This document shows positions 11,745-15,468 of a stretch of 64,000 nt of DNA, piece after piece. The notes beneath the pieces are model-generated. The model had not been told where the DNA came from and did not search any database. It was given only the letters and a program-made list of their open reading frames with translations. Numbering within the stretch: position 1 is the first letter of the stretch; every line of letters starts with the position of its first letter. This stretch comes from an uncultured Vicinamibacterales bacterium (GTDB lineage: Bacteria; Acidobacteriota; Vicinamibacteria; Vicinamibacterales; UBA8438): assembly GCA_958295905.1 (NCBI GenBank), contig OY282382.1, positions 558,001 through 622,000 on the forward strand, in the 5' to 3' direction. Made by a program: the position numbers and the translations under genes.

Positions 11745-12218
11745 TCAGCACGAATATCGGGGAATCGGACGGTAGCCGTACATCGAACCGTCCTGGTTGT
11801 GCCATGCGCCGGACGTGCCCCTGATGGCGTCGATAATGCTCTCGCCGTGCCAACCGACCATGGCGTCGGCATGACGATCCAGAGCGGCCGGCAATTCGCA
11901 GTCGCGGTCGCCGCGCGCCCAGACGCCCACGATCCGCTTGCCCTGCTTCTGGGCGTACTCGATCTCCCATTCCACCCACTCGCTGTGCCTCGTTCTGTCC
12001 GAGACGTACACCAAGAGGCAGCCGGCCAGCCGTATGCGCGGAGCGAGGATCTCCGACTTTATGTACTGCTCGTTGTGCGCGTTGTTCGGGTTGTCCGCGG
12101 TTATGGAATAATCACGACACGTCATGCCATGCTGCTGGATCAGTTGCTTGAGATCCGTCAGGCCGGCGTCGTCCTCGTGTCGGTGGCTGATGAACACGTT
12201 CCTGATCTGCTCCGCCAT
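11745..12218 (-). CDS. TIR-like DUF1863 protein, last gene of the protease operon
   Basis: 157 residues, start chosen at ATG 12218, four bases after the upstream stop with GGAAGTGAGG as ribosome-binding site; an earlier ATG at 12236 overlaps the previous gene. It is a MTH538-type TIR-like protein (DUF1863, the Pfam group that includes Thoeris ThsB): NVFISHRHEDD (residues 7-17), DYSITADNPNN, then ILAPRIRLAGCLLVYVSDRT and WVEWEIEYAQKQGKRIVGVW (81-100) with the conserved Glu of the WEIEYA helix. These domains cleave or cyclise NAD in defence systems or act as scaffolds. Being last in a six-gene overlapping operon with two peptidases and an XRE regulator suggests an effector or signal role; that is inference. 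Confidence 0.82.
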   Translation of the reverse strand: MAEQIRNVFISHRHEDDAGLTDLKQLIQQHGMTCRDYSITADNPNNAHNEQYIKSEILAPRIRLAGCLLVYVSDRTRHSEWVEWEIEYAQKQGKRIVGVWARGDRDCELPAALDRHADAMVGWHGESIIDAIRGTSGAWHNQDGSMYGYRPIPRYSC

Positions 12219-12222
12219 CACC

Positions 12223-12516
12223 TCACTTCCCTTCATCCGACCGTTGCAGGTCGGTCAAGTCCTCCACGCCGGCTATCTCAGCCAGAAACCGGTTGTAGTT
12301 GCGCAAGTCCGCCTGCAACTGCTTCCGGAACTCCTTTCGCCTTTCCATGTTGCCGAAAGCGCCCGTCAGAGATTCCCGATGCCACTTCGCGGTAAAGGTC
12401 CGCACCACTTGGTTCAGAACAGGGATCAGATTGAGCATGGATCCGTGGTCCAGCAGGTGGTCCGTCGCCTTCATCCAGGCGTCGAGGCGCGTATCGGCTT
12501 CGATCAGTTTCGCCAT
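12223..12516 (-). CDS. 97-residue protein of unknown function in protease/TIR operon
   Basis: Starts at the ATG that overlaps the stop of the papain-like peptidase gene (TGATG), so translation is probably coupled; its own stop lies four bases before the TIR gene. The product is hydrophilic, predicted mostly helical, rich in charged residues and Trp/Asn (DAWMKATDHLLDHGSMLNLI, then FRKQLQADLRNYNRFLAEI). No signal peptide, membrane segment or recognised domain. Its fixed position between peptidase and TIR gene suggests an adaptor, inhibitor or substrate. I do not recognise the family. Confidence 0.75.
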   Translation of the reverse strand: MAKLIEADTRLDAWMKATDHLLDHGSMLNLIPVLNQVVRTFTAKWHRESLTGAFGNMERRKEFRKQLQADLRNYNRFLAEIAGVEDLTDLQRSDEGK

Positions 12517-13148
12517 CACGTCACTTCGTCCGTCAACACCAGCACGTCGCGCAGGTGCTGGATCATGAAAGCGTCGTCGAGCCAAGCATGTCCGGCGTCG
12601 GCCCACGCGGCCCCCCAACTGTTCCGGATGAGGAAACGGCGCGTCGTGTACGTCGTTCCGATTCCCACGGCCGCCACCGCGTGGAGTCCTCTGACCGGGC
12701 CGGCCGGAGAGATGACCCACGGGGCGGTCGGAGCGTAGAAGGCGTCCGTTGTCGAAATGCCCAGGACGGGGACGTGGCCGGCGTCCAGAAGGGCTTCGAC
12801 GTCCTCCGAACTCTGCTTCGCCGAGACGCTCTGTCGCCGATACAGGATCAGGTTCGCGGGCGGTGTCCACGCGGGCGACGGTTCGTTCTCGTGATACGGG
12901 CAATCGGATTCGACAGGCTGTCCGGGGTCGAGCAGCGCATGGGAGACGTCCGGAAAGTCGACGCCCGCGGGTGTGCCGGCGTATTCGGAGGCGAAATAGT
13001 GCAAATATTCGGGCGACAGCTCCACTTTCGATCCGCGCGCATGTTCGTGCGCCGTCGTGGACGCGTGTGCGAGGCAGGTCGGACGCGTTCCCTGATCGCG
13101 AACCGGACCGAGCAGTGGGCGGTAGTCGTGACGGACAGTGACGTTCAT
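12516..13148 (-). CDS. Papain-like (C1 family) cysteine peptidase, cytoplasmic
   Basis: 210 residues starting at an ATG that overlaps the upstream stop as ATGA. The C1 fold is shown by the oxyanion Gln in VRDQGTRPTCLAHA (Gln19, nucleophile Cys25, the same six-residue spacing as in papain), the catalytic His in RGLHAVAAVGIG (His156) and the Asn in LIRNSWGAAW (Asn176). There is no signal peptide and no propeptide, so the enzyme is probably made active in the cytoplasm unless held by another protein. The gene before it encodes a chagasin-like inhibitor domain, the usual inhibitor class for exactly this peptidase family. Substrate unknown. The family call is strong. Confidence 0.85.
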   Translation of the reverse strand: MNVTVRHDYRPLLGPVRDQGTRPTCLAHASTTAHEHARGSKVELSPEYLHYFASEYAGTPAGVDFPDVSHALLDPGQPVESDCPYHENEPSPAWTPPANLILYRRQSVSAKQSSEDVEALLDAGHVPVLGISTTDAFYAPTAPWVISPAGPVRGLHAVAAVGIGTTYTTRRFLIRNSWGAAWADAGHAWLDDAFMIQHLRDVLVLTDEVT

Positions 13149-14128
13149 GCGACCTGTTCCAGGACGCCGCGCCTGGTGCGGCGCGCCCAACCTTCACGTT
13201 CTTTTCCGTGTCCGTCGACGTCGATCCTGATGCGGTCCAGCGTGGCGCGGCTCCACGGCCGGACGTGTTCGAAGACGAGATGATGCACGCCGGGCGTCCT
13301 GAACCTGACGTACGACACCCGGGAAGATCTCGCGCCGTACGCGTGATCGAGATCCGGCGCCCGCTCGCCGACGACGTCGACCTCGGCATCCGCGTCGACG
13401 AGACGCCAGACGTAGCCGGCGGAGGCATGGTCCTGGACGTGGACTGCGAACAGATCGTCGGACCCGGCTTCGATGAACGTTTCGCTGTCGGCCGCTGTGA
13501 TCGCCCACACGTCCGCCCAAGAGTTCGTGATCGATCCGGCCGGCGCCAACTCGCGCTTCAGCGTCTTCACCGGTTTTTCCTGAAGTTGACGGGCTTCGGG
13601 GCGCGTGAGGACCTTGGACGTGACCAGAGCCCAGCACGCGGCCTGGTAGCTGATGCCCAGGCGCAGGGACAGTTGATAGACGTTTCGGGGTTGATGGAGC
13701 TTGTTCCTGGTCCATTCATGACGCGTCGCGGACGCGAGCAGGAGGCGCTTCGGAGCCAGGAGCTCGGAAGCGAACGTATCCGCCGCCGCTTCGTGCGCCG
13801 GTCGCGACGCCGGTGCGTTTCGTCCCTCGAATCCGACCGTCTCGTCGAGGCTCGTTCGATGTCCGAGCAGCAGATGGCCGAGTTCATGGGCCACCGTGAA
13901 CCGTTGCGCCGGCAACCCGAGTTTCGTGGTCACGATGATTCCGCGCTCTTGGTCGTTGACGGTGATGAACGCCCCCCACAGCTTGTCCAACGGCCGGAAC
14001 AGCAGCGGAATGTTGCGGTCGGCGACCGCTCCGATGACGTCGAAGCTGGTGCGTGCGCCGCTCGGCGGCTCGTTGAACACGGCCGCGGCCTCGCTGACCG
14101 CGCGCAGTATCTCGGTGCGCTTGGTCAT
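13145..14128 (-). CDS. ImmA/IrrE metallopeptidase fused to a chagasin-like (I42) cysteine-protease inhibitor domain
   Basis: 327 residues. The N-terminal half is an ImmA/IrrE zinc peptidase: HELGH at residues 81-85, and downstream AHEAAADTFASELLAP supplying the third zinc ligand (about Glu113) and the usual helix. Such enzymes cut their partner XRE repressor to switch on stress or mobile-element genes. The C-terminal part (about 222-305) fits inhibitor family I42: strand LFAVHV, then ASAGYVWRLV corresponding to the NPTTGYxW loop, a GARSSRVSYVRFRTPG stretch, and LVFEHVRPW corresponding to the RPW loop. I42 inhibitors block papain-type peptidases, and the next gene encodes one. The start overlaps the XRE stop as ATGA. 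The fusion is visible directly; the regulatory meaning is inferred. Confidence 0.83.
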   Translation of the reverse strand: MTKRTEILRAVSEAAAVFNEPPSGARTSFDVIGAVADRNIPLLFRPLDKLWGAFITVNDQERGIIVTTKLGLPAQRFTVAHELGHLLLGHRTSLDETVGFEGRNAPASRPAHEAAADTFASELLAPKRLLLASATRHEWTRNKLHQPRNVYQLSLRLGISYQAACWALVTSKVLTRPEARQLQEKPVKTLKRELAPAGSITNSWADVWAITAADSETFIEAGSDDLFAVHVQDHASAGYVWRLVDADAEVDVVGERAPDLDHAYGARSSRVSYVRFRTPGVHHLVFEHVRPWSRATLDRIRIDVDGHGKEREGWARRTRRGVLEQVA

Positions 14129-14512: not shown

Positions 14513-14830
14513 TCATTTTCCGAAGACGAGATGCCGGATCGCATCATTGATGCCGGCGTATCCGCCAGCGCGAATCCGCCGGACGTCGAATGGGCGGCCC
14601 TCGTGCTTTTCGAAGATCGGCGCCATCCGGGCGACCGTCTTGGAGTCGACGACAGGCATGGCCCCCCACAAATCCGTCCCTGTCGCGCCGCTGCCGGAAA
14701 CTTGGCGGTCCCAATCCGTCTGTTCCTTCTCCCAACACGCGCGGAGATCCGCTGACAACCGCGTTTGTGTGTCCGCGTCGCTCCACGCGGGTCTGGGCGC
14801 GGATCCGGGCACGATTTTGGGCTGCAGCAT
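14513..14830 (-). CDS. 105-residue protein of unknown function, first gene of the operon
   Basis: Lies 46 bases upstream of the XRE gene on the same strand and directly downstream of a good promoter candidate. The product is soluble, with an acidic/Trp-containing helix (LSADLRACWEKEQTDWDRQV), a central GTDLWGAMPVVDSKTVARM segment and a C-terminal GGYAGINDAIRHLVFGK. No recognisable domain, signal or membrane segment. The ribosome-binding site is weak. Its position as first gene of the XRE/ImmA/papain/TIR operon is the main reason to treat it as real. Confidence 0.6.
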   Translation of the reverse strand: MLQPKIVPGSAPRPAWSDADTQTRLSADLRACWEKEQTDWDRQVSGSGATGTDLWGAMPVVDSKTVARMAPIFEKHEGRPFDVRRIRAGGYAGINDAIRHLVFGK

Positions 14831-14854
14831 CTGGCGTCCGTTCGATAATCAGAC

Positions 14855-14883
14855 ATTCTGCTGCAAGAACGTCCGATGGTCAA
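14855..14883 (-). promoter_or_regulatory. Sigma-70-type promoter for the protease/TIR operon
   Basis: On the minus strand TTGACC (14883-14878) is followed after exactly 17 bases by CAGAAT (14860-14855): five of six and four of six matches to the consensus boxes. The -10 box ends 24 bases before the ATG at 14830. It lies in the gap after the phosphopantetheinyl transferase gene, so the operon can be transcribed on its own and may be the target of its XRE protein. Confidence 0.5.
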
Positions 14884-14907: not shown

Positions 14908-15468
14908 TCACCGGGTGGGGCGAGGTCGCACGCCGTCCGGCCACAGGGAGGCCGACGCGATCCATGACGGGACGGCCCTCGAACAGCGCACGTCGAGCGT
15001 GACGCCGCACGCACGGGCAACGCCGCGGCAGCGAACGGGGGTGAGCGAGATCCACGACACGGCGACGTCCGCAAAACCGAGCGGTAGTCCGAAAACCGGG
15101 TACACGGCCTTGTACGCGGCCTCCTTGATGGACAGAAGAACGACTCGTCCCTCGGCTTCCGGCATCGACGACCACGGCTGCTCGCCAACATCCAGTCCAC
15201 GGATCTTGGGGACGCGCTTCGCGTCCAGGCGTTCGACGTCGATGCCGATCGACCTCATTCGATCGGTGGGAGCGATGGCGGCGGCGACGGTCGTGCCCTT
15301 GTGACTCACGCTGCCGGTGTAGCCTTGCGGCCACTCGCGAGCCCCTGAGGCCAGCCGGGTCGGCTCGACGGCGGAAAGACTGATGCTCGCGACGAGATTC
15401 GTCAGGCACTTCCCGGTTGCGTCCCGCCGAGCCTCCATCAGGACCGGCTCGCGAGCAGTCGGCGGCAC
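14908..15468 (-). CDS. 4'-phosphopantetheinyl transferase superfamily protein
   Basis: 186 residues. Transfers the phosphopantetheine arm from coenzyme A to carrier-protein serines. The superfamily motifs are present: WPQGYTGSVSHKGTTVAAA (residues about 46-64), magnesium-binding GIDVERLD (75-82) and SIKEAAYKAVYPVFG (113-127), in the EntD/Sfp-like pattern. The protein is shorter than Sfp, with a brief N-terminus beginning ARRDATGKCL. No carrier protein, peptide synthetase or polyketide synthase gene lies in the window, so the substrate is unknown. It is on the same strand as, and 77 bp upstream of, the protease/TIR operon; whether it belongs to that system is open. Confidence 0.75.
   Translation of the reverse strand: MPPTAREPVLMEARRDATGKCLTNLVASISLSAVEPTRLASGAREWPQGYTGSVSHKGTTVAAAIAPTDRMRSIGIDVERLDAKRVPKIRGLDVGEQPWSSMPEAEGRVVLLSIKEAAYKAVYPVFGLPLGFADVAVSWISLTPVRCRGVARACGVTLDVRCSRAVPSWIASASLWPDGVRPRPTR

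Follow-up and report, generated by a model that had tools for sequence, protein, structure and literature searches.

A metallopeptidase fused to a chagasin-family (I42) domain is encoded beside a papain-like peptidase in a mobile cassette

Judged from sequence comparison, a gene of an uncultured Vicinamibacterales bacterium encodes a true fusion of an ImmA/IrrE (M78) metallopeptidase with a C-terminal I42 (chagasin-family) domain, and this I42 domain probably binds and inhibits the C1 (papain-like) peptidase encoded next to it, a reading to which we assign a probability of roughly 0.7. The gene lies in the window, which is the whole stretch of 64,000 nucleotides that we analyzed. The minus-strand gene order is phosphopantetheinyl transferase (PPTase), acyl-carrier-like protein, CapH-like helix-turn-helix (HTH) regulator, M78-I42 fusion, C1 peptidase, a truncated open reading frame, and a ThsB-type TIR protein (Table 1).

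Table 1. Cassette features in the window, in order of position
Feature	Position	Strand	Evidence
ThsB-type TIR protein, 163 aa	11745..12236	-	PADLOC ThsB, 4.6e-61; PF08937, 3.9e-23
Truncated thymidylate-synthase-like gene	12223..12516	-	~32 residues homologous to the intact L004 gene
C1 (papain-like) peptidase, 210 aa	12516..13148	-	Pfam PF00112, catalytic residues, cathepsin profile matches
M78 (ImmA/IrrE, CapP-like) metallopeptidase with C-terminal I42 (chagasin-family) domain, 327 aa	13145..14128	-	Pfam, PADLOC, PDB profile, Foldseek, alignment
I42 inhibitory loop signatures, L2 SAGYVW (residues 236-241) to L6 RPW (residues 290-292)	13253..13423	-	
XRE-family HTH regulator, 113 aa	14125..14466	-	PADLOC capH, 2.8e-16
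Acyl-carrier-protein-like protein, 105 aa, VVDSK replacing GxDSL	14513..14830	-	Homologue alignment
4'-Phosphopantetheinyl transferase	14908..15468	-	PF17837, 3.2e-6 (above cut-off); PF01648, 3.1e-5 (just below cut-off)

Residues 38 to 165 of the fusion match Peptidase_M78 (PF06114; E value of 2.3e-13, 50.5 bits against a cut-off of 22), and residues 224 to 300 match Inhibitor_I42 (PF09394; E value of 1.3e-7, 32.2 bits against a curated cut-off of 27.2). The initial annotation had pointed to the I42 loop signatures SAGYVW and RPW after a complete ImmA/IrrE domain and had proposed a PF09394 profile search as a check; both motifs are located, both Pfam domains score above their cut-offs, and the PF09394 match is significant. 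The M78 half also matches the PADLOC capP model (1.5e-16), and its metal site, HELGH at residues 81 to 85 with E113 as the third ligand, is invariant in an alignment of 15 homologues. A profile of the 15 fusion homologues matches PDB entries for amoebiasin-2 (9e-10), CapP (1e-8), IrrE (7e-7), and chagasin (5e-4), of which amoebiasin-2 and chagasin are solved I42 structures. AlphaFold modeled the fusion and C1 from four sequences each, with a mean pLDDT of 46 in both cases, so that we used only the fold-search rankings; for the fusion model, with its mean pLDDT of only 46, each of Foldseek ranks 1 to 10 in the PDB is a chagasin-family inhibitor or a scaffold derived from one. Given the Pfam match together with the PDB profile and Foldseek matches to the chagasin family, the I42 motifs in the fusion are not a chance occurrence.

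The GYxW motif is kept in 17 of 17 I42 domains compared and RPW in 15 of 17. The domain resembles chagasin/ICP (MEROPS I42) by Pfam, by PDB profile, and, for a low-confidence model, by fold search, as well as in its GYxW and RPW loops, but it is fused to a metallopeptidase where chagasin is free-standing, it has a putative cognate C1 peptidase next door in a prokaryotic operon, and its NPTT (L2) and GxGG (L4) motifs are degenerate (HASA-GY in L2 and YGAR in L4). The GG of L4 is retained in some relatives. One relative (L016) is a natural variant of the L6 loop, with QAR in place of RPW, and its C1 is nevertheless intact. As to whether the I42 domain was gained with C1 or remodeled from an older C-terminal domain, hhalign gave a weak signal, with Streptomyces only.

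The neighboring peptidase matches PF00112 with an E value of 1.6e-8 (35.3 bits against a cut-off of 20.7), and its nearest solved relatives by profile search are cathepsins and papains. The catalytic Gln-Cys-His-Asn set is complete in the window copy and in every C1 copy compared. The protein begins at the mature enzyme, lacking both a propeptide and a signal peptide, and would therefore be active in the cytosol once folded; neither it nor the fusion shows an obvious secretion signal. The C1 start overlaps the fusion stop (ATGA, 13145 to 13148). In the 6.3-Mb genome, the fusion is the sole PF09394 match and the adjacent C1 is the sole PF00112 match, in searches that each also found their own family in the control-panel genomes.

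The I42 domain is present on M78 in 19 of 19 cassettes with C1 (17, plus two from other species in the window's genus) and in 0 of 11 without C1, which are HTH-M78-synthase cassettes from cyanobacteria, Streptomyces, two rhizobial plasmids, and Acidobacteriota. From the other direction, 16 of 17 plasmid homologues of the C1 subfamily adjoin such an M78 gene, the exception being a longer stand-alone gene in Deinococcus. The C1-positive cassettes form one clade in both the M78 and the synthase trees (support of 95/91 and 100/97, respectively), which indicates one co-acquisition rather than many independent events. The pair is maintained over a deep divergence, from the archaeon Haloarcula to Acidobacteriota. 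The suggestion in the initial annotation that the peptidase next door is the target of the inhibitor domain is thus supported both by the single I42 and single C1 matches in the genome and by the contrast between 19/19 and 0/11.

The gene order of the window recurs on plasmids of Haloarcula, Rhizobium, Sinorhizobium, Bradyrhizobium, Sphingobium, Sphingomonas, Acuticoccus, Sulfitobacter, and Burkholderia, in metagenome-assembled genomes of Acidobacteriota and gammaproteobacteria, and on one contig of a viral collection. The cassette core consists of PPTase/AcpS, acyl-carrier protein, HTH repressor, M78, with or without C1, and a thymidylate-synthase-like enzyme. This last gene, which follows C1 in the relatives, encodes a divergent thymidylate synthase that falls below the Pfam cut-off; its profile matches solved thymidylate synthases at 9.5e-4, in an alignment that includes the catalytic cysteine. 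Around the synthase are genes for MazG/MazG_C (PF18722), a 5-hmdU DNA kinase (HMUDK_hel, PF18723), uracil-DNA glycosylase (UDG), dCTP deaminase, and AcpS/PPTase, and based on the synthase and these surrounding genes we consider this to be a mobile cassette of the nucleotide- or thymine-modification type. A carrier-like protein with a DSL or DSK motif, together with PPTase/AcpS, is a regular member of cassettes that have the kinase, MazG_C, and synthase-like genes (the window and L004 to L024). The synthase-like protein is divided between two adjacent open reading frames on two Rhizobium ruizarguesonis plasmids (L011, 6486 to 7245, and L016, 6556 to 7390), and three rhizobial plasmids (L011, L016, and L121) have caspase-family genes immediately upstream of the cassette, on the carrier-protein side. 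Since cassettes with carrier, kinase, and synthase but no C1 exist, C1 appears to stand outside the carrier and nucleotide chemistry; the I42-C1 pair is an add-on module within a wider nucleotide-type cassette, which had no place in the initial annotation. The fusion had no match in phage records. When viral contigs were scanned with the M78 and C1 profiles, identity and coverage marked most of the matches as generic ImmA and papain genes; the synthase-like profile found one cassette-bearing contig (L034). The cassette evidence gave no indication of prophage-style induction.

Residues 8 to 109 of the HTH regulator align to positions 4 to 100 of the 103-position PADLOC capH model, which is nearly its whole length. 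The adjacent HTH and M78 genes are homologous to CapH and CapP, and by gene content they are a pair of the CapHP/PprI-DdrO type; the regulator is the presumed substrate of the M78 domain. In the carrier-like protein, D62 and S63 are invariant among 14 homologues; PF00550 is matched in 5 of these 14, the window copy not being one of them, and the PPTase presumably modifies this carrier. At 14852 to 14873, ahead of the gene for the carrier protein, lies an imperfect palindrome, a possible operator that is not conserved in the relatives checked, and a palindrome scan upstream of the carrier-protein genes found no conserved operator.

At the other end of the operon, the TIR gene of the window occupies the slot held by the thymidylate-synthase-like gene in other cassettes. 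For this reason we rejected the idea that C1 is naturally paired with the TIR protein. It looks like a later arrival, and 11745 to 12516 is an apparent module replacement. No ThsA match was found among the neighboring genes scanned, beside the ThsB match of 4.6e-61. The tail of the truncated synthase frame is unrelated to the synthase and resembles part of a patatin-like protein; a patatin-like phospholipase that resembles this tail adjoins a TIR gene in Mesorhizobium (L123). ThsB-type TIR genes also occur in a cassette of their own (TIR, a hypothetical protein of ~210 aa, MazG_C, and UDG) on plasmids of Mesorhizobium, Beijerinckia, and Cupriavidus (L123, L124, and L125). The TIR and synthase-like genes look like alternative partners of MazG_C and UDG.

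Comparison of the window with its sister cassette (L004) shows homology from the PPTase gene through C1, ending at ~12420, which falls at codon ~33 of the synthase. Searches of the window's genome gave no match to the synthase, MazG_C, or the kinase, the two Pfam searches being empty in the control genomes as well, and the absence of these nucleotide enzymes is based partly on the lack of L004 homology beyond ~12420. In a genome of the same genus (G523; L215, 7600 to 8800), the synthase is deleted from nearly the same codon (~33) to late in MazG_C, with damage to both MazG_C and the kinase; another (G524, L216) retains the synthase. The shared position suggests a recurrent breakpoint or hotspot. 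In both genomes of the genus that lost the synthase, the M78-I42 and C1 frames are intact, as is every window frame from PPTase through C1. Between the window and L004, dN/dS is 0.13 to 0.17 for C1, 0.18 to 0.25 for the fusion, and ~0.28 for the I42 part (by one method), and C1 has not evolved faster along the window branch (8 versus 11 substitutions). Because some of the divergence between the window and L004 predates the synthase loss, these values do not prove present-day selection.

The steps that we infer, namely inhibition, ssDNA sensing, release of C1, and action on a C1 target, together with the coupling of sensing to release that the initial annotation had also proposed, would run as follows. 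A C1 peptidase without a propeptide would be active in the cytosol upon folding, and the I42 domain, translated just ahead of it, would bind its active site 1:1 and keep it silent. Members of the I42 family use loops L2, L4, and L6 to bind papain-family enzymes tightly and at 1:1 stoichiometry (PMC2607524). Upon activation by ssDNA, as in known relatives, the M78 half would cleave the CapH/DdrO-like repressor encoded just upstream, so that the operon would be derepressed; CapP and PprI cleave CapH and DdrO, and this cleavage is activated by ssDNA (PMC10904395). With C1 docked on the switch-bearing chain, a change in how much of that chain is present, in its conformation or stability, or in its turnover would free C1, although we regard it as doubtful that M78 activation itself does so. 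In PprI, a GAF-like domain is needed for ssDNA activation (PMC10904395), and since the I42 domain sits at its position, ssDNA sensing by the fusion is unproven and the trigger may differ. Extended to a two-protease immune switch, in which one chain would cleave the repressor on DNA damage and hold an executioner C1 through its chagasin domain, and a phage-triggered change in the sensor would free C1 and derepress the operon at once, with the synthase-like or TIR modules as a second arm, the proposal becomes somewhat unlikely.

Of the other explanations, the one to be taken most seriously concerns the window copy alone: whatever the family does, this copy may be a decaying remnant without present function. 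Its synthase is truncated, the synthase, MazG_C, and kinase are unmatched in its genome, and G523 in the same genus shows similar loss. We nevertheless think this unlikely, given that the frames from PPTase to C1 are intact, the tested genes have low dN/dS and intact catalytic residues, and C1 has not changed faster on the window branch. It is less probable that the I42-like domain is a docking module that tethers C1 without lasting inhibition, so that C1 processes M78, HTH, or carrier and thereby resets or amplifies the switch. The loop motifs are indeed relaxed relative to chagasin, and L016 has an intact C1 without RPW, but invariance of GYxW and retention of RPW in 15 of 17 domains are what active-site binding predicts, and known I42 members inhibit the papain family tightly and 1:1 (PMC2607524).

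It would be more surprising still if C1 were an acyl-transfer or transamidation enzyme that works with the carrier protein in a base-modification pathway, with the I42-like domain as a scaffold. Such a role would suit a cassette in which carrier-protein and PPTase/AcpS genes lie beside genes of the thymine-modification type. Five cassettes that bear a carrier protein or AcpS lack C1, however (L015, L018, L019, L020, and L022), which indicates that the carrier-protein step does not require C1; moreover, C1 persists in cassettes whose synthase, kinase, and MazG_C are missing or damaged, and among solved structures its sequence is nearest to cathepsins and papains. Finally, there are I42 proteins whose target peptidases belong to other organisms, an example being Plasmodium ICP, which acts in host cells (PMC2845656), and the domain might likewise be aimed at a foreign papain-family peptidase of a phage, a competitor, or a eukaryote, with the C1 neighbor incidental. 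We consider this very improbable in view of the strict co-occurrence with C1, the ATGA overlap, and the lack of an obvious secretion signal on either protein. Inhibition of the neighboring C1 by the I42 domain remains the reading that we prefer.

Each part of the system is already known, and the fusion and its pairing with C1 appear to be a new combination. We found no description of either in the papers searched; Iyer 2013 and Burroughs 2015 may cover parts of the cassette, and RefSeq labels such fusion proteins either ImmA/IrrE or I42. The arrangement of an HTH repressor gene and, after it, an M78 metallopeptidase gene is shared with CapH/CapP of CBASS operons and with DdrO/PprI (IrrE) of Deinococcus. 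Staphopain and staphostatin are a bacterial papain-like peptidase and its co-transcribed cytosolic inhibitor; staphostatins have a different inhibitor fold, are free-standing, and guard against a secreted pre-enzyme. The window likewise encodes a papain-like peptidase alongside a predicted cytosolic inhibitor, but this inhibitor is part of a regulatory protease chain, and the C1 is cytosolic and propeptide-less. With 5-hmdU or thymine-hypermodification systems and nucleotide-centric defense, the relatives' cassettes share HMUDK_hel, MazG_C, UDG, and dCTP deaminase, but they add the carrier protein and PPTase, the HTH-M78 switch, and, in one clade, I42 and C1; the window copy, in contrast to cassettes of the hypermodification type, is without the nucleotide enzymes. 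A role in antiphage defense was recently validated for thymidylate synthase and 5-hmdU-kinase domains, and MazG, MazG_C, and UDG occur in predicted defense systems (PMC13092281).

The fusion, found on mobile elements in bacteria and in one archaeon, joins in a single molecule the repressor-cleaving switches of the IrrE/CapP type and the papain-family peptidases that chagasins inhibit. If the proposed pairing is true, bacterial chagasin homologues would gain a native cognate enzyme, and the cassette would be a candidate for protease-executed phage defense under DNA-damage control.
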